Below are positions 324-20,578 of a DNA stretch of 48,276 bases, in pieces. The notes beneath the pieces are model-generated. The model ran no database searches. It saw only the letters and a list, made by a program, of their open reading frames with translations, and had not been told where the DNA came from. The stretch covers positions 1 to 48,276 of the forward strand of contig JAFUFD010000025.1 in assembly GCA_017470055.1 (NCBI GenBank), written 5' to 3'. Origin of the DNA: Prevotella sp. (GTDB lineage: Bacteria > Bacteroidota > Bacteroidia > Bacteroidales > Bacteroidaceae). The position numbers and the translations under genes were made by a program. Positions within the stretch are counted from its first letter, which is position 1, and each line of letters begins with the position of its first letter.

Positions 324-3300
324 ATGACACTGCAGGACTTAGTACAGTTATATGGGCTGGCTCCACAGGTAGAAGCCCTGAGAAACGCCATAGAGGAAAA
401 ACCGGTGAAAACGATTTTCCTCCAGGGACTCGTTGCCTCCTCCGCCCCCATGCTCTTTTCTTCTGTCAACGTCCAGTGCTCTGCACTCTACATCCTTAAC
501 GATGAAGAAGAGGCAGGCTATTTTTATAATGACCTCAAACAGATGGTAGGAGAGGATAACGTCCTGTTTTTCCCTTCCTCCTTCCGTCGTGCCATCAAAT
601 ATGCGCAACGTGACGCTGCTAACGAGATTCTTCGCACAGAAGTCCTCACCAGACTCTCCTCGCTCAACACCCGTCTCTCTATCGTTACTTACCCTGAGGC
701 TCTTGCCGAACAGGTGATAGGGCGACAGCAACTGGAAGAGTGTACCTTGGTATTACGTCAAGGACAGACGATCATTGTCGATGAGGTCGTAAAGACCCTT
801 CGTGACTTAGACTTCCATGAGGTAGACTATGTCTATGAGCCAGGACAGTTCGCTCTGCGTGGCTCTATCCTTGATGTCTATAGTTTCAGTAGTGAATATC
901 CTTTCCGTATTGATTTCTTTGGTGACGATATCGATACCATCCGTACCTTTGAGGTGGAGGACCAGTTGTCAAGGGATAAACGGGATACTGTCAGTATTGT
1001 GGCAGGCGAACCCTCTCAATCCTCCCTACAAAGGGAGGACTTACCAAACCTCCCCCCTCAACAGGGGGGACCGAGGGAGGTCACTCTTCTCTCTTACTTA
1101 CGAGAGGATACCATCCTCATCACCAAGGACTTCTCCTTTGTCCGTGATGCCATCGACCGTATATGTCAGGAGGCGAATCCTGAGGAGGTGCAGGTCATCA
1201 GTGGGACACAATGGATGGGGGGGACGACTCCTTTCCGTAAGATAGAGTTCGGAAGTCGTCCCAGTGCGAAACCTGAGGTGTCGCTGACTTTCCAGATAAC
1301 ACCGCAACCACTGTTGCATAAGAATTTCGACCTCCTCCGCGGGTCCTTCGCTGACTACCAGTCGAAGGGCTACCACCTCTATGTCTTGGCGGATAGCCAG
1401 AAACAACTTGAGCGTCTGATGAATATCTTGTCATCACAACAGGAAACGGCGGCTGCCAACGATCCTCATTCCTCTTTCAACGCTCAATTAGTCAACTATG
1501 TCGACAAAGCCGTTCATGCTGGCTTTATCGACCATGACCTGCGACTCTGTATCTTCACCGACCATGAGATATTCGACCGTTTCCACCGCTACCACCTCCG
1601 TTCGGAGAGAGCACGTAACGGCAAGGCGGCACTCACCCTCAAGGAGATCCAACAGTTTGAGGTGGGTGACTATATCGTCCATGTCGACCATGGCATCGGT
1701 AAGTTCGGTGGCTTGGTGAGAATGCCGATTCAGGACCCTCCTAAATCCCCCCTGTTGAGGGGGGACTTACCAGTCTCTCCCCCTAAACAGGGGGAGTCGG
1801 AGAGGGTCAAATATCAGGAGATGATAAAAATCATCTACCAGGGCGGCGGTGCCATCTATGTATCCATCCATTCCCTCTATAAGGTCAGCAAATATAAGGC
1901 ACAGGATAGTGGGGAACCACCTCGTCTCTCCCAACTGGGTACCGGACAGTGGGAACGGATGAAGGAACGTACCAAGAACAAACTGAAGGATATCGCTCGT
2001 GACCTCATCAAACTCTATGCAGCACGAAAACGGGAGAAAGGCTTTGCCTTCAGTGCCGATAATTTCATGCAGCATGAGTTGGAGGCTTCCTTCCTCTATG
2101 AGGACACTCCCGACCAGTTGAAGACCACCAATGAGGTGAAGGCGGATATGGAACAGGGACGCCCCATGGACCGCCTGGTATGTGGGGATGTAGGCTTCGG
2201 TAAGACGGAGATAGCCGTCAGGGCTGCGTTTAAAGCGGCTTGTGACTCTAAACAGGTGGCGGTGTTGGTACCTACCACCGTTCTTGCCTATCAGCATTTC
2301 CAGACATTCCAGAAACGACTGAAAAACTTGCCTGTCAGGGTTGATTACCTGACTCGTGCCCGTACTCCTAAACAGACAAAGGAGATCCTGCAGGACCTTG
2401 CTGACGGGAAGATTGATATCCTGATCGGTACGCATAAACTCATCGGGAAATCGGTGAGGTTCAAAGACCTCGGACTGCTGATCATCGATGAGGAACAGAA
2501 ATTCGGTGTGTCTACCAAGGAGAAACTCCGTCAGATGCGGACGAATGTCGATACACTGACACTGACGGCGACACCTATCCCTCGTACCCTCCAGTTCTCC
2601 TTGATGGGAGCCCGTGACCTGAGTATCATTCAGACTCCTCCGCCTAACCGCTATCCCATCCAGACGGAGATTCATGTGTTAGGACCGGAGATTATCGCGG
2701 AGGCAATCAATTTCGAGATGTCACGCAACGGACAGGTGTATTTCGTCAATCCCCGTATCAACGACCTGCAGCGTATCGCTGACATGATCCGTACGTATGT
2801 GCCGGATGCTCGTATTGCTATCGGTCATGGACAGATGAAGCCTGACGAACTGGAACGGATTGTCTTCGATTTCATCAATTACGACTATGACGTGCTGTTG
2901 TCTACGACAATCATCGAGAATGGTATTGACATCCCGAATGCGAATACTATCATCATCAATGGTGCCCATCATTTCGGACTCTCTGACCTCCACCAGATGC
3001 GAGGCAGGGTAGGGCGTGGCAACCGCAAGGCATACTGTTACTTGTTGGCACCACCTCTTGCTGACCTCCCTCAGGAGAGTCGCAGACGGTTGGAGGCGTT
3101 AGAGACTTTCAGCGAGTTGGGCAGTGGTATCCAGATCGCCATGCAAGACCTTGATATCCGTGGTGCCGGCAACCTCCTCGGTGCCGAGCAGTCTGGCTTT
3201 ATAGCCGACCTCGGTTATGAGACTTACCAGAAGATTCTCAACCAGGCAATGGCTGAGTTGAGACGAGAAGAAGACCCCTCTAAATCTCCCCTGCTGAGGG

Positions 3301-3788
3301 AAGACTTGAATAGCACTCTCCCTGAACAGGGGGACGTGGAGGGAGTTTTCGACCTGCCTCTCTATTTCCCCGACCAGTATGTACCATCGGATAGTGAACG
3401 GATGCTGTTGTATCGGGAACTCGACAATCTGCACACAGACGAGCAGTTAGTGGCATATCGCAAGCGTCTCATCGACCGCTTCGGACCAGTACCTCAGGAG
3501 GGTGAGGAGTTAATGCGTGTGGTTCCTTTGCGACGGGTCGCAGGACAGTTAGGGTGTGAGAAGTTAATGCTTAAGCAAGGGCGTATGACGCTTTATTTCG
3601 TCTCTGACCCGAATCACCCGTTCTATCAGAGTCCTGTTTTCGATGCTATCTTGCAGTATGTGGCGATGAATCCTCGTCGTTGTCAGTTTCGTGATGTGAA
3701 TGGAAAGCGTTCTCTTTTAATATCCGATACTAAGACTGTTGAGAGTGCTCTCAATCTCTTAAAGGGTATTCTTTCTCTTCATTCCTAA
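324..3788 (+). CDS. mfd: Transcription-repair coupling factor Mfd
   Basis: This is a 1154-residue cytoplasmic ATP-dependent DNA translocase that removes RNA polymerase stalled at lesions and recruits the UvrA/UvrB excision machinery. The UvrB-like N-terminal domains come first. The CarD-like RNA-polymerase-interaction domain begins near residue 445 (VGDYIVHVDHGIGKFGGLVR). The helicase core shows Walker A GDVGFGKT (621-628), DEEQ (722-725) and motif VI QMRGRVGRG (891-899), and the C-terminal regulatory domain follows. Three 25-residue insertions at 229-253, 471-495 and 984-1008 correspond to repeated 75-bp palindromic elements; they fall in inter-domain or surface positions, so the protein is probably functional. 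The ATG follows a good -7 box with almost no leader. A hairpin with a T-run follows the stop codon. Confidence 0.97.
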   Translation: MTLQDLVQLYGLAPQVEALRNAIEEKPVKTIFLQGLVASSAPMLFSSVNVQCSALYILNDEEEAGYFYNDLKQMVGEDNVLFFPSSFRRAIKYAQRDAANEILRTEVLTRLSSLNTRLSIVTYPEALAEQVIGRQQLEECTLVLRQGQTIIVDEVVKTLRDLDFHEVDYVYEPGQFALRGSILDVYSFSSEYPFRIDFFGDDIDTIRTFEVEDQLSRDKRDTVSIVAGEPSQSSLQREDLPNLPPQQGGPREVTLLSYLREDTILITKDFSFVRDAIDRICQEANPEEVQVISGTQWMGGTTPFRKIEFGSRPSAKPEVSLTFQITPQPLLHKNFDLLRGSFADYQSKGYHLYVLADSQKQLERLMNILSSQQETAAANDPHSSFNAQLVNYVDKAVHAGFIDHDLRLCIFTDHEIFDRFHRYHLRSERARNGKAALTLKEIQQFEVGDYIVHVDHGIGKFGGLVRMPIQDPPKSPLLRGDLPVSPPKQGESERVKYQEMIKIIYQGGGAIYVSIHSLYKVSKYKAQDSGEPPRLSQLGTGQWERMKERTKNKLKDIARDLIKLYAARKREKGFAFSADNFMQHELEASFLYEDTPDQLKTTNEVKADMEQGRPMDRLVCGDVGFGKTEIAVRAAFKAACDSKQVAVLVPTTVLAYQHFQTFQKRLKNLPVRVDYLTRARTPKQTKEILQDLADGKIDILIGTHKLIGKSVRFKDLGLLIIDEEQKFGVSTKEKLRQMRTNVDTLTLTATPIPRTLQFSLMGARDLSIIQTPPPNRYPIQTEIHVLGPEIIAEAINFEMSRNGQVYFVNPRINDLQRIADMIRTYVPDARIAIGHGQMKPDELERIVFDFINYDYDVLLSTTIIENGIDIPNANTIIINGAHHFGLSDLHQMRGRVGRGNRKAYCYLLAPPLADLPQESRRRLEALETFSELGSGIQIAMQDLDIRGAGNLLGAEQSGFIADLGYETYQKILNQAMAELRREEDPSKSPLLREDLNSTLPEQGDVEGVFDLPLYFPDQYVPSDSERMLLYRELDNLHTDEQLVAYRKRLIDRFGPVPQEGEELMRVVPLRRVAGQLGCEKLMLKQGRMTLYFVSDPNHPFYQSPVFDAILQYVAMNPRRCQFRDVNGKRSLLISDTKTVESALNLLKGILSLHS
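1008..1082 (+). repeat. 75-bp coding palindromic element 1 in mfd
   Basis: The element has two internal hairpins (CCTCCCT/AGGGAGG and CCCCCCT/AGGGGGG) and a weak outer stem. It is exactly 25 codons and is read in the same frame as the other two mfd copies. Its peptide has the pattern E-P-S-Q-S-S-L-Q-R-E-D-L-P...Q-Q-G-G...V. The aligned segments are 13, 18, 10 and 34 bases long, the same as in elements 2 and 3. Confidence 0.85.
1734..1808 (+). repeat. 75-bp coding palindromic element 2 in mfd
   Basis: This is the best preserved copy. The outer stem is GACCCTC (1734-1740) with GAGGGTC (1802-1808). Inside it are the hairpins CCCCCCTGTTGAGGGGGG and CTCCCCCTAAACAGGGGGAG, giving a three-way-junction layout. 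It encodes 25 residues starting DPPKSPLLRGDLP within the CarD-like domain, where Mfd proteins normally have a short loop between strands. Confidence 0.9.
3273..3347 (+). repeat. 75-bp coding palindromic element 3 in mfd
   Basis: This copy is more diverged but keeps the exact 75-base length and frame. It encodes 25 residues starting DPSKSPLLREDL and containing LPEQG. It lies in the linker between the translocase core and the C-terminal domain. The second hairpin is imperfect (CTCTCCCTGAACAGGGGGA). Confidence 0.85.
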
Positions 3789-3800
3789 TCTTTCTTTCTC

Positions 3801-3829
3801 TTGGGGGCTTCCCCCAATGCCCCCTTTTT
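3801..3829 (+). terminator. Probable terminator of mfd
   Basis: TTGGGGGCTTCCCCCAA (3801-3817) forms a strong hairpin 12 bases after the mfd stop and is followed by C and T runs ending in TTTTT. The sequence is also the terminal palindrome of a reverse-oriented intergenic repeat. Confidence 0.6.
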
Positions 3830-4011
3830 ATTCAGCAATCCTTTCTTTTCTTCTAACATAAATTTCTTTTTCGAACATCCCCCATCCCCTTCACCCTTGA
3901 AGGGGCTTCACCTCTCCCCCTGTATCCCCCTCCCCATCAGGGGCGGGGGAAAACGAAAAATCGCAGAAACCACGATTTTTCGTGGGTTTTGGTAAGGCGG
4001 GACGACGCCTT
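3801..4011 (-). repeat. Composite palindromic intergenic repeat, copy b (reverse)
   Basis: This is the reverse complement of the module order seen in copy a: terminal palindrome, CCCCTTCACCC/GGGTGAAGGGG-type hairpin, the ACGAAAAATCG...CGATTTTTCGT hairpin, then AAGGCGGGACGACGCCTT. The terminal palindrome faces the 3' end of mfd. Confidence 0.85.
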
Positions 4012-4120
4012 GTCTTTTTACGCCGCCTACGCTAAACGCTGGGCGTCGGGGAGGGGAAGGCGGAATAGTTCTCCTTTGTAATTTCCTGTTGCAGGAGGGC
4101 GTAGCCCAAATAAAAAATCC
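4012..4120. repeat. Intergenic middle module type 1
   Basis: This module contains CGCCGCCTACGCTAAACGC and GCTGGGCGTCGGGGAGGGG, then GGCGTAGCCC. Related copies occur at 10328-10420, 15983-16085 (reverse orientation) and, as a short piece, near 18312-18345. It joins oppositely oriented composite repeats. No coding potential is apparent. Confidence 0.7.
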
Positions 4121-4378
4121 AAGGCGTCGTCCCGCCTTACTAAAACATAGCAGGGGGTGGCGGTTCTGCCACCACCTGCTTTTTTCCTTCCCTGAGGGGA
4201 GGAAAGACAAAGGAGAGGTGAAGCCCCTTCAAGGGTGAAGGGGATGGGGGATGTTCGAAAAAAAGTGCAGGATCACTGCAAAAAGAATGAATCGCTGCAT
4301 AAAAAGGCTTTGGGGAAATTCCCCAACAAAGGAATGGAATTTAAAATAAACCCTCGCCGTAGGCGTATAAAAAATGAA
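4121..4378 (+). repeat. Composite palindromic intergenic repeat, copy c
   Basis: The copy starts at AAGGCGTCGTCCCGCCTT. It carries a variant hairpin GCAGGGGGTGGCGG...CCACCACCTGC in place of the ACGAAAAATCG hairpin. It then runs through the CCCCTTCAAGGGTGAAGGGG hairpin and a segment ending in GCCGTAGGCGTATAAAAAAT. It is the first of three tandem forward copies. Confidence 0.8.
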
Positions 4379-4620
4379 AAGGCGTCGTCCCGCCTTACTA
4401 AAACCTACGAAAAATCGTGGTTTCTGCGATTTTTCGTTTTCTCCCTTCCCTGAGGGGAGGGAGATACAGAGGGAGAGGTGGAGCCCCTCCTTACGGTAAG
4501 GAGGGGACGGGGGAGGTTGAGCCGTTGCAGCATTCGCTGCATAAAAAGGGTTTGGGGAAATTCCCCAACAAAGGAATGGAATTTAAAATAAACCCTCGCC
4601 GTAGGCGTATAAAAAATGAA
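4379..4620 (+). repeat. Composite palindromic intergenic repeat, copy d
   Basis: This is the second tandem forward copy, 258 bases after copy c. It has the ACGAAAAATCG/CGATTTTTCGT hairpin, the CCCCTCCTTACGGTAAGGAGGGG region, TGCAGCATTCGCTGCA and the TTTGGGGAAATTCCCCAA region. Much of it is identical to copies a and h. Confidence 0.85.
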
Positions 4621-4847
4621 AAGGCGTCGTCCCGCCTTGCCAAAACCTACGAAAAATCGTGGATTCTGCGATTTTTCGTTTTCTCCCTTCCCTGATGGGG
4701 AGGGGGATACAGGGGGAGAGGTGAAGCCCCTTCAAGGGTGAAGGGGATGGGGGATGTTCGAAAAAGAAATTTATGTTAGTAGAAAAAGAATGAATCGCTG
4801 CATAAAAGATCACTGCTTAATAAGAAGAGGTTTTGGGAAACCCCCAA
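4621..4847 (+). repeat. Composite palindromic intergenic repeat, copy e
   Basis: This is the third tandem forward copy, 242 bases after copy d. It ends in a degenerate terminal palindrome (TTTTGGGAAACCCCCAA) facing upxY. Confidence 0.8.
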
Positions 4848-4927
4848 TGAAAAATAGTAGTTTCACTACAGAAGAAAAAAAGGGACCTTTTGGGAAGCCC
4901 CAAAGAATACTAAAGAAACCATTTTTC

Positions 4928-4987
4928 GTTCTTTTTGCAAAAAGAACAACAGAATACTTGGTATTCAAAAAAAAAATTGTATCTTTG
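4928..4987 (+). promoter_or_regulatory. Hairpin-promoter module upstream of upxY
   Basis: The perfect palindrome GTTCTTTTTGCAAAAAGAAC (4928-4947) is followed by GAATACTTGGTATTC (4952-4966). Compared with the GAAAACTTGGTTTTC copies, paired A-to-T and T-to-A differences keep the palindrome intact. The -7 box is TATCTTTG (4980-4987), 23 bases before the ATG. Confidence 0.75.
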
Positions 4988-5010
4988 CACCCGATTAAGA
5001 GAACACTACG

Positions 5011-9958: not shown

Positions 9959-9969
9959 TCTCTTTCCTC

Positions 9970-9998
9970 TTGGGGGCTTCCCCCAAGACCCCCTTTTT
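9970..9998 (+). terminator. Probable terminator of the upxY-rfbC operon
   Basis: TTGGGGGCTTCCCCCAA (9970-9986) followed by CCCCC and TTTTT lies 12 bases after the rfbC stop. This is the same arrangement as after mfd and after the gene at 17572. Confidence 0.6.
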
Positions 9999-10235
9999 CC
10001 CATTTACTCAAAACTCCTTTTTTTGCAGTAAAACCACTATTTTCTTTGGGGCTTCCCCCAAACCCCTTTTTATGCAGCGAATGCTGCAACTGCTCAACCT
10101 CCCCCGTCCCCTCCTTACCGTAAGGAGGGGCTCCACCTCACCCTCTGTCTCTCCCTCCCCTCAGGGAAGGGAGAAAACGAAAAATCGCAGAATCCACGAT
10201 TTTTCGTAGGTTTTAGTAAGGCGGGACGACGCCTT
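9970..10235 (-). repeat. Composite palindromic intergenic repeat, copy f (reverse)
   Basis: The full module series is in reverse order: terminal palindrome, a second CTTTGGGGCTTCCCCCAA-type hairpin, TGCAGCGAATGCTGCA, the CCTTACCGTAAGG region, the CGAAAAATCG/CGATTTTTCG hairpin and AAGGCGGGACGACGCCTT. The terminal palindrome faces rfbC. Confidence 0.85.
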
Positions 10236-10422
10236 ATCTTTTTTATTTGCTTACGCACCCTGCATTAAAGCCGCCCCTTATCAAGGGGCTCTAAAGGTAA
10301 GGCGGGACGACGCCTTATGTTATTTGACGCCGCCTACGCTAAACGCTGGGCGTTGGGGAGGGGGATACAGGATTTTGTTTGACATACAATACCTCAAAGG
10401 CGTAGCCCATATAAAAAATAAT
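10236..10422. repeat. Intergenic middle modules types 2 and 1
   Basis: A GCCGCCCCTTATCAAGGGGC hairpin module (type 2, also near 17152-17214 and 20068-20150) is followed by another AAGGCGGGACGACGCCTT. Then comes a type 1 module with CGCCTACGCTAAACGCTGGG. No gene is seen here. Confidence 0.7.
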
Positions 10423-10680
10423 AAGGCGTCGTCCCGCCTTACTAAAACCTAGCAGGTGGTGGCGGTTCTGCCACCTCCTGCTTTTCTCCCTTCCCTGAGG
10501 GGAGGGAGAGACAGAGGAAGAGGTGAAGCCCCTTCAAGGGTGAAGGGGATGGGGGATGTTCGAAAAAATTATGTTAGTAGAAAAAGAATGAATCGCTGCA
10601 TAATAAGGACTTTGGGGAAATTCCCCAACAAAGGAATGGAATTTAAAATAAACCCTCGCCGTAGGCGTATAAAAAATGAA
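10423..10680 (+). repeat. Composite palindromic intergenic repeat, copy g
   Basis: This forward copy carries the variant GCAGGTGGTGGCGG...CCACCTCCTGC hairpin, the CCCCTTCAAGGGTGAAGGGG hairpin and the TTTGGGGAAATTCCCCAA region. It is in tandem with copy h. Confidence 0.8.
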
Positions 10681-10925
10681 AAGGCGTCGTCCCGCCTTGC
10701 CAAAACCTACGAAAAATCGTGGTTTCTGCGATTTTTCGTTTTCTCCCTTCCCTGAGGGGAGGGAGAGACAGAGGGAGAGGTGGAGCCCCTCCTTACAGTA
10801 AGGAGGGGACGGGGGAGGTTGAGCCGTTGCAGCATTCGCTGCATAAAACAAGGACCTTAGGGAACACCCTAATAAAAAAGGATTACTGCTTAATAAAAAA
10901 AGGGGGCATTGGGGGAAGCCCCCAA
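10681..10925 (+). repeat. Composite palindromic intergenic repeat, copy h
   Basis: This forward copy is nearly identical to copy a and ends in TTGGGGGAAGCCCCCAA (10909-10925). The terminal palindrome faces the 3' end of the minus-strand amidase gene. Confidence 0.85.
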
Positions 10926-10933
10926 ATAACTTT

Positions 10934-10973
10934 CGGTACTTTTTCAAAAAGTACAACCGAAAACTTGGTTTTC
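10934..10973 (+). promoter_or_regulatory. Hairpin/GAAAACTTGGTTTTC module without a promoter partner
   Basis: The GGTACTTTTT/AAAAAGTAC hairpin and GAAAACTTGGTTTTC (10959-10973) are present as before plus-strand genes. No TAnnTTTG box follows, and the next gene is convergent. Here the module is probably only part of the repeat end. Confidence 0.5.
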
Positions 10974-11042
10974 TCATCAAAAACCTTACAAAAAAACAAA
11001 AACCCCTCCAACTACTATATAAAAGTCAGAGGGATTCTCGTT

Positions 11043-11675: not shown

Positions 11676-11836
11676 GACCCTCTCTGACTCCCCCTGATGA
11701 GGGAGCAGAGAAAGGGTGTGATTAAACATGATGGTAAGAACGAAAGTGGAAGGGGTGAGGAACAGGCTGCGTCCATAGGAGATTACGTGTTTGGAGTCCT
11801 TGTCCTCCCCCTAAACAGGGGGAGTTAGAGAGGGTC
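11676..11836. repeat. Facing pair of palindromic-element halves
   Basis: A segment beginning GACCCTCTCTGACTCCCCCTG at 11676 is mirrored by one ending GGGGGAGTTAGAGAGGGTC at 11836. Both belong to the family found inside mfd. The intervening 100 or so bases contain no clear gene. The pair lies between the smalltalk and HU-like genes and could form a large cruciform. Confidence 0.65.
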
Positions 11837-12952: not shown

Positions 12953-15148
12953 CTAAAACGACATTGTAAGTTCTTCTTTATCAGATAGATAACTTTGTAT
13001 TTCGTTATATGGTATTTCGACCACCCGATAATAGTCTCCATCCATTCTGTGCTTCCATTTAAATCCCAACTTCCGCATGATGACACCAATCTTCCTCACC
13101 GATATCTGGTGGCTGAGATGGCCGCCCCCGATCAATACAGAGATCATCGTGGAACTCATCAGTTTCGAGGACTCGCCGATACGGGGCTTCCGCAGACGGT
13201 GACTGATCAACTGCTCCTCGATGCTGATGATATGGAAGGGTTGGTTGAGGCGCTCCACCCGTTGCTCTTCCTCTTTGTCAAACCAGAACTGGAACCCCTT
13301 GAGATACTCATCCCGCAACTGGGCATACAGTTGATCGTAGTCGATACCCCATGTTCGTGGGTCGTCGATATGACTGACACGGAAACAGAGCCACCGGCGA
13401 TTACCCGAACTGTCGGTGAGGAACTGCTGCTCATTACCTGTGGCACAGAACGAGGCGAGACGTGCCTTCTGCATGCGGTAACGAGCATAGACCCGTCGCT
13501 CGTTGATGGTCTCTGCCGTCACCAATGCCTTCAGTTCCGACATATACTTACCTTCAATCGCCTCTATCTCCTCGATCTCCACCAGACAGTTCTCCGCAAT
13601 GGCGAGTTTATCGTCCTTCTGGGAGAACGAGTTATGGGCGTTCTCCCAGAAATAAGGACGTAGGGCAGGGGGTAGCAGGTGACGGAAGAAGGTTGTCTTG
13701 TAGATACCCTGTTCTCCGATGATCGTCAGCACTTGGTGGTTAGCCTGACGGTCGTCCATCCAGGTGGCTACCATGGCAATCAGCCATTTGTGGAGTGCCC
13801 ATAGGAAATCCTCCTGTATCTCCTCCTGACACTGTTTCAGGACCACTGGTGTTGCCGTGACATGCCTGGCGAGATCCTGGACACGGTCCTTGCCGTCCCA
13901 GCCTGGCAGTTGGTCGATATAGTCACGGATGGGGTGGAAGAGGATGGAGAAGTCACTGTTCAGCACGCTCAGCACGTCCTTCGTCAGTACACGCTTCCCT
14001 GTGTCCGCCTCCATCTGACACCGCATCGACTCAACGACCCGGTCCGTAATGAGTTCATAGTCCTCCCCGTTCCCCGACAACCGTTTATATACTGTCTGGT
14101 CTGTCACCACGTTATACATCACCTTGCACCGCTCACTGAGCCATGCACGGATCTCCGTCGTCGAGAGCAGGGCATTACGCCGTCCTTTCGTATCCTTCTG
14201 CTGGAGCCTCCAGGTACCATGCTCCTCCGTTTTCTTAAAACAGTGCATGATGACACTGTCACGCTCCTTCTGGGGTACCTCGCTCCATTCCTGTTGCGCC
14301 CATTCCTTCAGTGTCTCCTCCTCACACCCGAAGCGGTTGAAGAGGTAGGCGGCATGCACGATATAGTCGTGATGATGGTGGGGCGCATAACAATAGCCTC
14401 GTTGCTCCATCATCCGCTGTACCTTCGGGAAAGCCTCTATAGGAGTGGCATGCTGCGTATGGGCATCATACACCCTACGAGGCTTCCCGGGTTCTTTGAC
14501 CGTCTCCTCCGTCTCCACAACCATCTCGTCATCGGTGATGACGAAAGGCTCACTGTCGGGGTTGAAATACACCTCCGCATCATGGGCAAGACCTGAGAGC
14601 CTGACAGCATCACTGCATCCGTGGTCGTAGTCATACCCCGTCAATGCCTTGTAGTACTCGTTGCCCTTCCTGAAGGCAGCAGGATATGCCTCACAGTTGA
14701 GGTGGACATCCCCCTCCCTCACAAAACGGTAGATGACACGGAAGCCCTCTCCGCTAATCGTCTGATAACAGAGGAACGTATGTGGATCCTGACAGATCAG
14801 CCCTCTGATATCCTTCCCTTCATGTCCTCCCCCTAAACAGGGGGAGTCAGAGGGGGTCTTGTCAAAGTCACACAAGGCGAATCCCGTGGCATGGCTGATG
14901 TCCTTCGACTGTCTGCCACTGCCATTGAAGAGGACACCGACACTGAAGGCAGGCATCGCCTTCTCCTTCACCTCCTGTCTTGCCACCTTCCTACTGACAT
15001 TGACTGCCATCTCACGAAAGAGTTCCGTCTTCTTCCGGACACTCTCGTCATACTTGATGAGTCTGATGATCTCATCGATTCCCACTGGTTTGCTCTCAAT
15101 GCCATTCAGACATTTGAAAACACTAAACTTAACTTGTTTCTCCATCAC
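12953..15148 (-). CDS. BT4734-like primase/VirE-domain protein
   Basis: This is a 731-residue protein of the type often found near HU-like and DUF4248 genes in Bacteroidales. An N-terminal BT4734-like (primase-related) domain covers about residues 55-200 (SHATGFALCDFD, SGEGFRVIYRF). A primase C-terminal-like segment lies near 240-310. A VirE/D5-like P-loop ATPase domain follows, with IIGEQGIYKTTFFRHLLP as Walker A near residue 480, then CATGNEQQFLTDSSGNRRW. The likely role is a replication or plasmid/phage-derived primase-helicase; this is inferred. A 33-bp half-copy of the palindromic element is embedded near residues 97-108 in reverse orientation. Confidence 0.85.
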   Translation of the reverse strand: MMEKQVKFSVFKCLNGIESKPVGIDEIIRLIKYDESVRKKTELFREMAVNVSRKVARQEVKEKAMPAFSVGVLFNGSGRQSKDISHATGFALCDFDKTPSDSPCLGGGHEGKDIRGLICQDPHTFLCYQTISGEGFRVIYRFVREGDVHLNCEAYPAAFRKGNEYYKALTGYDYDHGCSDAVRLSGLAHDAEVYFNPDSEPFVITDDEMVVETEETVKEPGKPRRVYDAHTQHATPIEAFPKVQRMMEQRGYCYAPHHHHDYIVHAAYLFNRFGCEEETLKEWAQQEWSEVPQKERDSVIMHCFKKTEEHGTWRLQQKDTKGRRNALLSTTEIRAWLSERCKVMYNVVTDQTVYKRLSGNGEDYELITDRVVESMRCQMEADTGKRVLTKDVLSVLNSDFSILFHPIRDYIDQLPGWDGKDRVQDLARHVTATPVVLKQCQEEIQEDFLWALHKWLIAMVATWMDDRQANHQVLTIIGEQGIYKTTFFRHLLPPALRPYFWENAHNSFSQKDDKLAIAENCLVEIEEIEAIEGKYMSELKALVTAETINERRVYARYRMQKARLASFCATGNEQQFLTDSSGNRRWLCFRVSHIDDPRTWGIDYDQLYAQLRDEYLKGFQFWFDKEEEQRVERLNQPFHIISIEEQLISHRLRKPRIGESSKLMSSTMISVLIGGGHLSHQISVRKIGVIMRKLGFKWKHRMDGDYYRVVEIPYNEIQSYLSDKEELTMSF
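14826..14858 (-). repeat. Half-copy of the palindromic element inside the primase gene
   Basis: CCTCCCCCTAAACAGGGGGA and the following GTCAGAGGGGGTC match the second hairpin and right arm of mfd element 2. Relative to the coding strand it is inverted, so it encodes a different peptide (KTPSDSPCLGGGHEG). The reading frame stays open. Confidence 0.8.
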
Positions 15149-15559: not shown

Positions 15560-15683
15560 CACATAATTTCAAATGTAATTGTACCAATCTATGAGTGGTG
15601 CAGTTACAATTCTTTTCACTCTGTTAGTCTCTTTTAACCCTAATTCCGAATACTGTTCCCACGTTGTCGTAATACATTTTCTC

Positions 15684-15982
15684 TTGGGGGCTTCCCCCAA
15701 GTCCCCCTTTTTCTCTCAAGTAAATCTTTCTTGGGCTTTCCCCAAATCCTTTTTCTGCAGCAAAACCATTTTCCTTCAATCATTTTTTTCAAACATCCCT
15801 CCCTAAAGTCCTTTTTTATGCAGCGAATGCTGCAACGGCTCAACCTCCCCCGTCCCCTCCTTACAGTAAGGAGGGGCTCCACCTCTCCCTCTGTATCTCC
15901 CTCCCCATCAGGGGCGGGAGAAAACGAAAAATCGCAGAAACCACGATTTTTCGTAGGTTTTGGTAAGGCGGGACGACGCCTT
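15684..15982 (-). repeat. Composite palindromic intergenic repeat, copy i (reverse)
   Basis: TTGGGGGCTTCCCCCAA (15684-15700) is followed by the reverse-ordered modules to AAGGCGGGACGACGCCTT (15965-15982). The terminal palindrome faces the 5' side of the minus-strand primase set. The gap between 15560 and 15683 shows no gene. Confidence 0.85.
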
Positions 15983-16085
15983 ATTATTTTTTATATGGGC
16001 TACGCCTTTGTGGTATTGTATGTCAAACAAAATCCTGTATCCCCCTCCCCAACGCCCAGCGTTTAGCGTAGGCGGCGTAAAAAAT
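15983..16085 (-). repeat. Intergenic middle module type 1 (reverse)
   Basis: This is close to the reverse complement of 10328-10420, including GGGCTACGCCTTTG, CAAAATCCTGTATCCCC and CCCAGCGTTTAGCGTAGG. It joins reverse copy i to forward copy j. Confidence 0.8.
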
Positions 16086-16343
16086 AAGGCGTCGTCCCGC
16101 CTTGCCAAAACCTACGAAAAATCGTGGTTTCTGCGATTTTTCGTTTTCCCCCGCCCCTGATGGGGAGGGGGATACAGGGGGAGAGGTGAAGCCCCTTCAA
16201 GGGTGAAGGGGATGGGGGATGTTCGAAAAAATTATGTTAGTAGAAAAAGAATGAATCGCTGCATAAAGAAAGGGGTTTGGGGAAGCCCCAAATAAAAAAG
16301 AATCACTGTTGAATAATAAGGGGGCATTGGGGGAAGCCCCCAA
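16086..16343 (+). repeat. Composite palindromic intergenic repeat, copy j
   Basis: This forward copy starts AAGGCGTCGTCCCGCCTT and ends TTGGGGGAAGCCCCCAA (16327-16343), facing the toxin-antitoxin pair. Confidence 0.85.
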
Positions 16344-16352
16344 AATAACTTT

Positions 16353-16414
16353 CGGTACTTTTTCAAAAAAGTACAACCGAAAACTTGGTTTTCAAAAATA
16401 AATTCCTATCTTTG
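16353..16414 (+). promoter_or_regulatory. Hairpin-promoter module upstream of the toxin-antitoxin pair
   Basis: A CGGTACTTTTT/AAAAAGTACAACCG hairpin is followed by GAAAACTTGGTTTTC (16379-16393). The -7 box is TATCTTTG (16407-16414), 22 bases before the ATG. Confidence 0.75.
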
Positions 16415-16992: not shown

Positions 16993-17020
16993 AGGATGTG
17001 CCTATTTTGACACACCCTCA

Positions 17021-17214
17021 CGGGGGAGGTTGAGCCATTGCAGCATTCGCTGCATAAAAAGGGTTTGGATAAATTCCCCAACAAAGGAATGGAATTTAAA
17101 ATAAACCCTCGCCGTAGGCATATAAAAAATGATAAGGCGTCGTCCCGCCTTGCCTTTAGAGCCCCTTGATAAGGGGCGGCTATAATGCAGGGTGCGTAAG
17201 CAAATAAAAAAGAT
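17021..17214 (+). repeat. Partial composite repeat copy k plus middle module type 2
   Basis: The copy lacks the first modules and begins at GGGGGAGGTTGAG. It runs through TGCAGCATTCGCTGCA and the GCCGTAGGCATATAAAAAAT segment to AAGGCGTCGTCCCGCCTT, then the CCCCTTGATAAGGGGC hairpin. Just before it, GAGGATGTG and CACACCCTC (16992-17020) form a small hairpin after the toxin stop. Confidence 0.75.
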
Positions 17215-17471
17215 AAGGCGTCGTCCCGCCTTGCCAAAACATAGCAGGGGGTGGCGGTTCTGCCACCACCTGCTTTTTTCCTTCCCTGAGGGGAGGGAGA
17301 GACAGTGGAAGAGGTGAAGCCCCTTCAAGGGTGAAGGGGATGGGGGATGTTCGAAAAAATTATGTTAGTAGAAAAAGAATGAATCGCTGCATAAAAAAAG
17401 GGAGCCTTGGTACCCCCAAGAAAAAAGAATCTCTACATTAAGAAAAAGGGGGCATTGGGGGAAGCCCCCAA
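17215..17471 (+). repeat. Composite palindromic intergenic repeat, copy l
   Basis: This forward copy has the GCAGGGGGTGGCGG...CCACCACCTGC hairpin variant. It ends TTGGGGGAAGCCCCCAA (17455-17471), facing the gene at 17572. Confidence 0.85.
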
Positions 17472-17479
17472 ATAACTTT

Positions 17480-17542
17480 CGGTACTTTTTCAAAAAAGTA
17501 CAACCGAAAACTTGGTTTTCTCAAAAGAAAATATTACTTTTG
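17480..17542 (+). promoter_or_regulatory. Hairpin-promoter module upstream of the gene at 17572
   Basis: A CGGTACTTTTT/AAAAAGTACAACCG hairpin is followed by GAAAACTTGGTTTTC (17506-17520). The -7 box is TACTTTTG (17535-17542), 30 bases before the ATG. Confidence 0.7.
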
Positions 17543-17571
17543 CCCTGTTATCGTAATAGAAACAAAAAACA

Positions 17572-18033
17572 ATGACCCATTTATCGGAAGACGAACATAA
17601 GGCACAGATGGAAAGCATGAAGGCATTCGACGAACAGATGCCGTGCGTTGGTATTTTCTGGTATGACCAGAAAGACCATGCTTTCTTTGGCGTATGCAAA
17701 TCCGAACTCACTCCCAAGATGGTAGAGGAAGCCGCAGAGAAAGGACTTCCGTTCATCAACTATCCTCATTTGCATCGTCAAGTCTGGATGAAGGAATATT
17801 TCCGTGCTCAGGCGAAACATGAGGACACGAAGTTCAAGGGAGACTATACCCAGATACCTCGTGGAAGAGTAGCCTGGAACATAGATAAGTTCATCGTCCT
17901 TGTCGGTCATTGGGCAGAGTCCATCCAAGACGAGTTGACGGTGTTGATAGAGGAAGAGTTCTCCCTCCCATACTTCGAGTTCGTTTATGACGAGCACTGG
18001 GACCTTGGGCATGGTTGGTCGGGAGATATGTAA
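17572..18033 (+). CDS. Unknown conserved-looking 153-residue protein
   Basis: I do not recognise a family. The product is soluble and acidic, rich in aromatic residues (VGIFWYDQKDHAFFGVCKSE, LVGHWAESIQDELTVLIEEE). It has no signal peptide or membrane segment. A histidine/tryptophan-rich end (YDEHWDLGHGWSGDM) is notable. The gene stands alone between a promoter module and a hairpin with a T-run, so it is probably monocistronic. The intact frame and good promoter argue that it is a real gene. Confidence 0.75.
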   Translation: MTHLSEDEHKAQMESMKAFDEQMPCVGIFWYDQKDHAFFGVCKSELTPKMVEEAAEKGLPFINYPHLHRQVWMKEYFRAQAKHEDTKFKGDYTQIPRGRVAWNIDKFIVLVGHWAESIQDELTVLIEEEFSLPYFEFVYDEHWDLGHGWSGDM

Positions 18034-18045
18034 TCTTTCTTTCTC

Positions 18046-18074
18046 TTGGGGGCTTCCCCCAAGTCCCCCTTTTT
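18046..18074 (+). terminator. Probable terminator after the gene at 17572
   Basis: TTGGGGGCTTCCCCCAA (18046-18062) with a following T-run lies 12 bases after the stop codon. It also forms the end of reverse repeat copy m. Confidence 0.6.
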
Positions 18075-18311
18075 CCCATTTACTCAAAACTCCTTTTTTT
18101 GCAGTAAAACCACTATTTCCTTTGGGGCTTCCCCCAAACCTCTTTTTATGCAGCGAATGCTGCAACTTCTCAACCTCCCCCGTCCCCTCCTTACCGTAAG
18201 GAGGGGCTCCACCTCACCCTCTGTCTCTCCCTCCCCTCAGGGAAGGGAGAAAACGAAAAATCGCAGAAACCACGATTTTTCGTAGGTTTTGGTAAGGCGG
18301 GACGACGCCTT
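18046..18311 (-). repeat. Composite palindromic intergenic repeat, copy m (reverse)
   Basis: This full reverse copy is almost identical to copy f and ends AAGGCGGGACGACGCCTT (18294-18311). A fragment of middle module type 1 follows. Confidence 0.85.
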
Positions 18312-18407
18312 TTTTTTACGCCGCCTACGCTAAACGCTGGGCGTCGGTGAAGAAACTATAGGGTTGTTTACCCAAAATACCACAAGGGCATTGCCCATAT
18401 AAATCCT

Positions 18408-20067: not shown

Positions 20068-20150
20068 CCCAAGCGTCGTCCCGCCGTGCCTTTAGAGCCC
20101 CTTGATAAGGGGCGGCTTTAATGCAAGGTGCGTAAGCAGATAAAAAAGAT
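20068..20150 (+). repeat. Intergenic middle module type 2
   Basis: GCGTCGTCCCGCCGTGCC is followed by the GCCCCTTGATAAGGGGC hairpin and AATGCAAGGTGCGTAAGC, closely matching 17152-17214. It leads directly into copy n. Confidence 0.7.
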
Positions 20151-20412
20151 AAGGCGTCGTCCCGCCTTACTAAAACCTACGAAAAATCGTGGTTTCTGCG
20201 ATTTTTGGTTTTCCCCCGCCCCTGATGGGGAGGGGGATACAGGGGGAGAGGTGAATCCCCTTCAAGGGTGAAGGGGATGGGGGATGTTCGAAAAAATTAT
20301 GTTAGTAGAAAAGGAATGAATCGCTGCATAAAGAAAGGGGTTTGGGGAAGCCCCAAATAAAAAAGAATCACTGTTGAATAAAAAGGGGGGGCATTGGGGG
20401 GAAGCCCCCCAA
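20151..20412 (+). repeat. Composite palindromic intergenic repeat, copy n
   Basis: This forward copy ends in TTGGGGGGAAGCCCCCCAA (20394-20412), one base pair longer per arm than other copies. It is the last copy in the window; none was seen in the polysaccharide operon after 23 kb. Confidence 0.85.
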
Positions 20413-20486
20413 GAAACAAACTTTATAAACTTTAATCAAATAAATATATCAAAATATAGTTAAATAAATCTAAATCAACAATTTTT

Positions 20487-20548
20487 GGTACTTTTTTGAA
20501 AAAGTACAACCGAAAACTTGGTTTTCTTAAAAGAAAATATTACTTTTG
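20487..20548 (+). promoter_or_regulatory. Orphan hairpin-promoter module
   Basis: The GGTACTTTTT/AAAAAGTACAACC hairpin, GAAAACTTGGTTTTC (20512-20526) and -7 box TACTTTTG (20541-20548) are all intact. Only degraded sequence lies within 400 bases downstream. Confidence 0.65.
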
Positions 20549-20578
20549 CACCGTTATAGAGCACTAAACCTATTGAAT

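Follow-up and report, generated by a model that had tools for sequence, protein, structure and literature searches.

Three in-frame inserts in a Prevotella mfd gene as probable copies of a dispersed palindromic element

How did three related palindromic blocks come to lie in one reading frame inside a single mfd gene? The window analyzed here is the whole 48,276-nt stretch of contig JAFUFD010000025.1 (Prevotella sp., assembly GCA_017470055.1), and its open reading frame (ORF) at 324..3788 (+) encodes the transcription-repair coupling factor Mfd, 1154 aa long (NCBIfam TIGR00580, 902 bits, cut-off 800). The first-pass annotation of this DNA, made from the letters alone, had described three 75-base copies in one shared frame, each adding a 25-residue peptide to the protein, and this was confirmed. 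Copy 1 (1008..1082, +) encodes residues 229-253, directly past the match to the UvrB-interaction domain, and holds hairpins at 1020-1039 and 1051-1070. Copy 2 (1734..1808, +; residues 471-495) lies within the match to the CarD-like/TRCF RID domain, with hairpins at 1746-1765 and 1777-1796, and copy 3 (3273..3347, +; residues 984-1008) lies directly ahead of the TRCF domain match, with hairpins at 3285-3304 and 3316-3335. Each copy comprises 75 nt (25 codons) and begins at codon position 1; the three align without gaps, and their peptides are EPSQSSLQREDLPNLPPQQGGPREV, DPPKSPLLRGDLPVSPPKQGESERV and DPSKSPLLREDLNSTLPEQGDVEGV, respectively. Pairwise, 52, 48 and 54 of the 75 positions are identical, while the best unrelated 75-mer within mfd reaches 33/75 (to copy 2), and the folding z-scores of copies 1, 2 and 3 are -3.6, -4.1 and -4.0. 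We conclude that these blocks are very probably copies of a small non-autonomous palindromic element, similar to the Rickettsia palindromic elements (RPE) and to REPINs (doublets of repetitive extragenic palindromes, REP), that is dispersed through Prevotella and relatives and copied in trans.

To compare the gene with its relatives, Mfd proteins of 109 other loci (101 distinct) were aligned with the window Mfd, and not one of the 109 carries any of the three 25-residue blocks where the window Mfd has it (the highest local score was 4). The insertion sites are variable linkers, in which many relatives carry other repeat-like peptides (among the matches listed), and the same linkers are hit by other palindromes in relatives. 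Two covariance models, R1 built on the three mfd copies and R2 built from the aligned copies with the mfd copies among them, were run over 80 of the 109 loci (E<=0.1 and 0.05). They gave 22 matches inside mfd, at 13 loci, falling in linkers near residues 100-119, 310, 370, 470 and 985; two of these, near residue 100 at loci L055 and L101, are doubtful because they overlap native residues. An apparent enrichment in mfd (15 of 33 distinct R2 places over the 80 loci, in a gene making up 17.9% of the bases; p 2e-4) was set aside, being weakened by the shared ancestry of L054, L055 and L101, by the mfd copies included in R2 and by weak matches to native sequence (L055, L101 at 10295). Short remnants were found at two mfd sites. 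In genome G035 (locus L144), site 2 retains the final 12 nt of copy 2 letter for letter (TCGGAGAGGGTC), the other 63 nt being absent, and the same 12 nt (TCGGAGAGGGTC) stand at site 1 in Prevotella sp. tf2-5. The simplest reading of these remnants is that they are old insertions that later underwent in-frame deletion. In a predicted structure of Mfd (35 sequences; mean predicted local distance difference test score, pLDDT, 67.8; predicted template modelling score 0.43), most of the length of the three inserts has pLDDT <50, but so do some stretches without inserts, so that the model lends weak support.

One element consists of an inverted pair of units of about 32 nt, each with a terminal GACCC and a GC-rich hairpin, joined by a short variable spacer (GACCC...hairpin / hairpin...GGGTC); single units occur too. 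Set against the reverse complement of the right unit, the left unit agrees at 0.75, compared with 0.53 after letter shuffling (n=87), and R1 scores every mfd copy on both strands, a sign that the reverse complement of the element is much like the element itself. The hairpins are kept by compensatory changes. Of 41 copies first aligned, 15 were dropped (other subtypes or poorly aligned loops) and 26 were realigned and counted. Standard pairing was found in 97% and 98% of the cells of the two hairpins and dropped to 47-73% when the partner was slid; 8 of 19 pairs were altered on both sides, in 37 cells, which none of 500 shuffles matched, and the covariation score was likewise above every shuffle. 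The three outer pairs tested were standard in only 77% of cells because the register of the outer stem slips between copies. Of the two hairpins inside an outer stem that had been proposed at first, the hairpins are therefore borne out by covariation, but the outer stem is slippery, with a register that varies by copy, and copies 2 and 3, when folded singly, favour one long bulged stem over the two-hairpin form. Copies are mostly 63-85 nt long; 52 of 92 end in the terminal inverted repeats GACCC/GGGTC, and 54 of 92 have a preceding A and a following T. A GTAG or CGTC tag within 6 nt of either end occurred 6 times over the 92 copies, so that neither is characteristic. An Rfam scan of window positions 1-20600 returned 7 matches (E<=1), all far under the gathering scores; one of them, a microRNA family over copy 2 (31 bits, gathering score 72), was taken as chance.

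The family is dispersed over many loci and genomes. R1 matched at least 45 of 150 same-genus genomes (E 1e-4), and R2 matched at least 56 of 201 family genomes (11 of 30 genera), at least 13 of 198 order-level genomes and at least 12 of 198 phylum-level genomes; the window's own bin is included each time, and the counts are lower bounds, with 24-32 candidates scored per genome. In 14 chosen genomes, R2 gave 12-131 match rows each (E 0.001, both strands counted). The window itself, contig C61, belongs to bin G000 (125 contigs, 3.39 Mb in all, with 6.84% contamination), which holds a second mfd on contig C62, encoding a protein that is 82% identical to the window Mfd and has no inserts. Given the two mfd genes and the contamination, the bin probably mixes two genomes, and a large part of it may come from another species. 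A mixed bin with two mfd genes is what an assembly or binning artefact might look like, but the single-contig genome G117 has the same family, as do many other assemblies and Prevotella sp. tf2-5, whose record bears no metagenome-assembled-genome label; we consider an artefact extremely unlikely.

Residence in core genes, in frame and at variable loops, is frequent. Among 68 copies read in 11 genomes, chosen from the R1 matches listed, 35 lie within ORFs (rule: 150 aa or longer, extending 30 codons or more to each side of the copy). When 21 high-scoring copies from four genomes were added and the rule was relaxed to 120 aa and 25 codons, an ORF ran across 55 of the resulting 89. With loci at least 97% identical left out, 35 of these 55 had a homologue aligned over both flanks, while flanks matching one protein were found for 2 of the 34 unspanned copies, namely mnmA of G106, in two frames, and G067:C26:16209. 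The G106 element (L193:2440-2511) lies at about the same place of mnmA as in G067, with the gene parts in different frames; it may represent a failed insertion or an assembly error. The genic share differs by genome (15/17 in G067, 12/14 in G544, 6/8 in G074, 6/15 in G071 and 2/6 in G111). Thirty host proteins were scanned against NCBIfam, and 17 scored above the curated cut-off, the remainder being below it or without a family. Hosts above the cut-off include LeuC, MnmA, HemW, SurE, RsgA, SufD, LeuS, IspG, MutS, a ferredoxin-type protein, an ABC-F ATPase, ObgE, TsaD and UvrA.

The first-pass annotation had also raised the question of whether genic copies prefer one frame. They do not: genic copies are read in both orientations and in different frames, and 21 of the 35 have two open frames. 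An adaptation of the element to translation was considered and rejected, since nongenic copies have equally many open frames (19 of 33), and no sign of a special adaptation was found. The proposal that the element keeps frame holds insofar as in-frame members occur in other genes, but its length is not bound to multiples of 3, with only 16 of the 35 genic copies having such a length. At all eight G067 hosts tested, the loop at the element site is shorter, or different and unrelated, in relatives. SurE is the cleanest case: a relative reads ...PAAQE followed immediately by FRGVRVCRM, and G067 carries 24 residues between E and FRGV. Together, the other in-frame hosts and the loops that are empty or different in relatives support the original suggestion that a palindromic element spreads into genes while keeping frame. 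Such a history would involve copying in trans by an enzyme that recognizes the hairpins or the ends, for which a single-strand transposase of the REP-associated tyrosine transposase (RAYT) type would be the leading, unproven candidate. Elements would land regardless of frame, and an insertion into a gene would survive only if it struck a loop and left the frame intact, leaving the peptide as a tolerated linker.

Could the inserts instead be functional protein modules kept for the benefit of the host, such as a regulatory linker in Mfd? The host gene is under purifying selection, with ratios of nonsynonymous to synonymous substitution (dN/dS) of 0.116 and 0.133 against two relatives, at synonymous sites near saturation; in the mfd core, the differences between the window gene and the C62 mfd fall mostly on third positions (185, 113 and 490 at codon positions 1, 2 and 3). 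Among the three window copies, the differences are flat (25, 21 and 25), a pattern that tells of conservation of the family and not of change after landing, since the copies may have diverged before insertion. Some observations would suit a functional module. Six occupied sites are common to G067 and G544 (SurE, RsgA, HemW, ObgE, UvrA and one further gene); the partners have the same orientation in all six and are more alike than shuffled ones (p 0.004). At these sites the elements are 0.82-0.91 identical over aligned positions and the gene flanks 0.69-0.84, with the element above both flanks in 6/6. Only three of the six pairs (RsgA, UvrA and the further gene) have the partner ranked first in one direction or both; for SurE and ObgE it ranks fifth or sixth. 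In an epimerase-like gene of other genomes, the element exceeded its flanks in one comparison (0.84 vs 0.73 and 0.76) and not in the other (0.73 vs 0.68 and 0.80). The shared sites are compatible with old inherited insertions whose copies exchange sequence, and also with repeated insertion. A functional module is very improbable, given that the elements are translated in both orientations and in different frames, that the window copies show no codon-position bias, that the peptide is absent from relatives and that the G035 mfd has only 12 nt at site 2.

Several results weigh against a mobile element copied in trans that often resides in genes. None of the eight copies read in the single-contig genome G117 is genic. 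The flat codon positions among the paralogous window copies partly reflect divergence before insertion. In the covariation analysis of 26 copies, the count of further pair types was not above shuffles (493 of 500 were as high). As to whether further copies exist elsewhere in the genome, on which the first reading had staked its case, the mixed bin G000 gives a partial answer: its other contigs have weak, mostly single-hairpin matches, but strong full-length matches are confined to C61 and no full copies were found beyond it. In SufD, ArgF and LeuS, a few loop residues were apparently replaced by the insertion. Finally, no target-site duplication of constant length was visible at the junctions examined, and no enzyme could be linked to the GACCC element.

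The result on duplications bears on a further alternative, in which the element would be a miniature inverted-repeat transposable element (MITE), the remnant of a DDE-type insertion sequence whose transposase uses the terminal inverted repeats GACCC...GGGTC. The frequent GACCC/GGGTC ends and the A before and T after the element, described above, speak for it. We nevertheless regard a MITE as unlikely, because a constant duplication was not seen, because the internal hairpins are conserved and not the ends alone, and because no parent element came up, though no search for one was made. Flanks that pair as hairpins around insertions were considered and rejected: left and right flanks of genic copies (n=38, z 0.36) were no more complementary than shuffled pairs, and those of all nongenic copies were (n=33, z 4.6). 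The nongenic signal is carried by G071 and G111 (n=13, p 0.007; other 20, p 0.38), whose copies seem to sit in AT-rich terminator-like palindromes.

A more specific mechanism is that of a RAYT-mobilized REPIN, in which a host Y1 (IS200/IS605-like) tyrosine transposase copies inverted hairpin pairs via single-strand intermediates. The inverted pair of hairpin units and the presence of singlets fit this mechanism. We searched 33 genomes, 25 with the element and 8 without R1 matches, with the Y1_Tnp profile (PF01797). Matches were found in 15 of the 25 element-bearing genomes and in 5 of the 8 others, so the presence of the transposase does not track the element; the share without a match, 10/25, is about that of R1-negative genomes (3/8), a further point against copying in trans. 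The ten are drafts, 71-95% complete (G000, G027, G008, G105, G106, G112, G341, G241, G300 and G345). Conversely, G010, G016, G045, G061 and G122 have Y1_Tnp and no R1 match at 1e-4. Also unfavourable, a strong element match was found at only one of 34 Y1_Tnp loci (of 41 matches), and R1 had no match among the first 22 Y1_Tnp loci; several Y1_Tnp loci hold other palindromes. The one match, a GACCC-type hairpin within locus L358 of G274, speaks for the mechanism. So does an arrangement in Prevotella sp. tf2-5, where a 275-aa Y1_Tnp gene (L028:9097-9924) lies directly upstream of mfd. This locus has seven hairpin doublets of the GGGGACAGTCCC type, at 4803, 5630, 7351, 9933, 10409, 10808 and 11282, of which one lies between the Y1_Tnp gene and mfd and three are in frame within mfd. 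Palindromes adjoining a transposase gene thus do enter mfd, but these doublets belong to a palindrome family other than the GACCC element. With the GTAG tag also lacking, mobilization by a RAYT is possible, and on balance we doubt it.

How does the element compare with known systems? REPINs have two inverted hairpin units with a variable spacer and also occur as singlets. The Prevotella element shares this anatomy and differs in its terminal motif, GACCC here and GTAG there.

In-frame palindromes inside genes are on record from Rickettsia, Wolbachia and several further lineages (PMC2229807, PMC3733652, PMC2996958, PMC5771137). RPE and the Wolbachia palindromic elements occur between and inside genes, where they are in frame in conserved housekeeping proteins (PMC2229807, PMC2996958); the Prevotella element, too, is palindromic and in frame inside conserved protein genes. 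It belongs to another phylum, is shorter, at mostly 63-85 nt, than the 105-146 bp given for RPE in PMC2229807, and has no CGTC tag; this comparison is with the description of RPE. In PMC3733652, more than half of the intragenic GTAG/CGTC REP inserts are dimers or grouped repeats, they encode 20-30 residues, and many of their targets are DNA synthesis and repair genes, which fits the mfd, uvrA and mutS hosts found here. That paper reports CGTC repeats in Bacteroidetes, and nowhere mentions Prevotella. These REPs and the Prevotella element are alike in being short palindromes within ORFs, and differ in that neither tag is characteristic of the Prevotella element ends. The MITEs ERIC, Correia/NEMIS and YPAL, of about 100-200 bp and with target-site duplications, are likewise non-autonomous and palindromic and form in-frame gene fusions (PMC2229807); duplications of this kind were not seen for the Prevotella element. 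The initial statement that genic palindromes are known in Rickettsia and have no description for this lineage agrees with our literature search, which found, among the papers listed, no description of protein-coding palindromes in Prevotella or Bacteroidales and had most subscription papers and all bioRxiv preprints outside its reach.

More tentatively still, and with the odds against it, we propose that some Prevotella and relatives have a REPIN-like family with coding sequence as its main habitat. The same UvrA, ObgE, SurE, RsgA and HemW loops would be occupied across species, with copies kept alike by exchange and changing more slowly than the surrounding genes, and Mfd linkers would offer landing sites to several families of palindromes, among them the doublets beside the Y1 transposase gene next to mfd. 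Palindromes in core genes of abundant gut bacteria make the entry of palindromes into genes and the gain of protein segments testable, and shared and empty sites over many species act as natural replicates. Annotators should be aware that the peptide in host proteins is not ancestral domain sequence.

Three single-hairpin (half) forms of the element also lie in the window, at 11676..11718 and 11805..11836 (no strand assigned) and at 14827..14858 (-). The last is in frame within a VapE-like/BT4734-like gene (12953-15148), with the peptide KTPSDSPCLGG. The intergenic stretches 3800-5000, 9960-11000, 15650-16400, 17020-18320 and 20070-20550 are mosaics in which several further palindromic modules recur within the window, among them modules around CTTGGGGGCTTCCCCCAA and AAGGCGTCGTCCCGCCTT. 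In relatives, short tandem repeats of the LSPLTSHLSPLTSHLS type lie in frame in similar loops, in the mfd linker near window residue 375 at L144 (G035) and in rsgA at L270, so that palindromes are not the only repeats in such loops.

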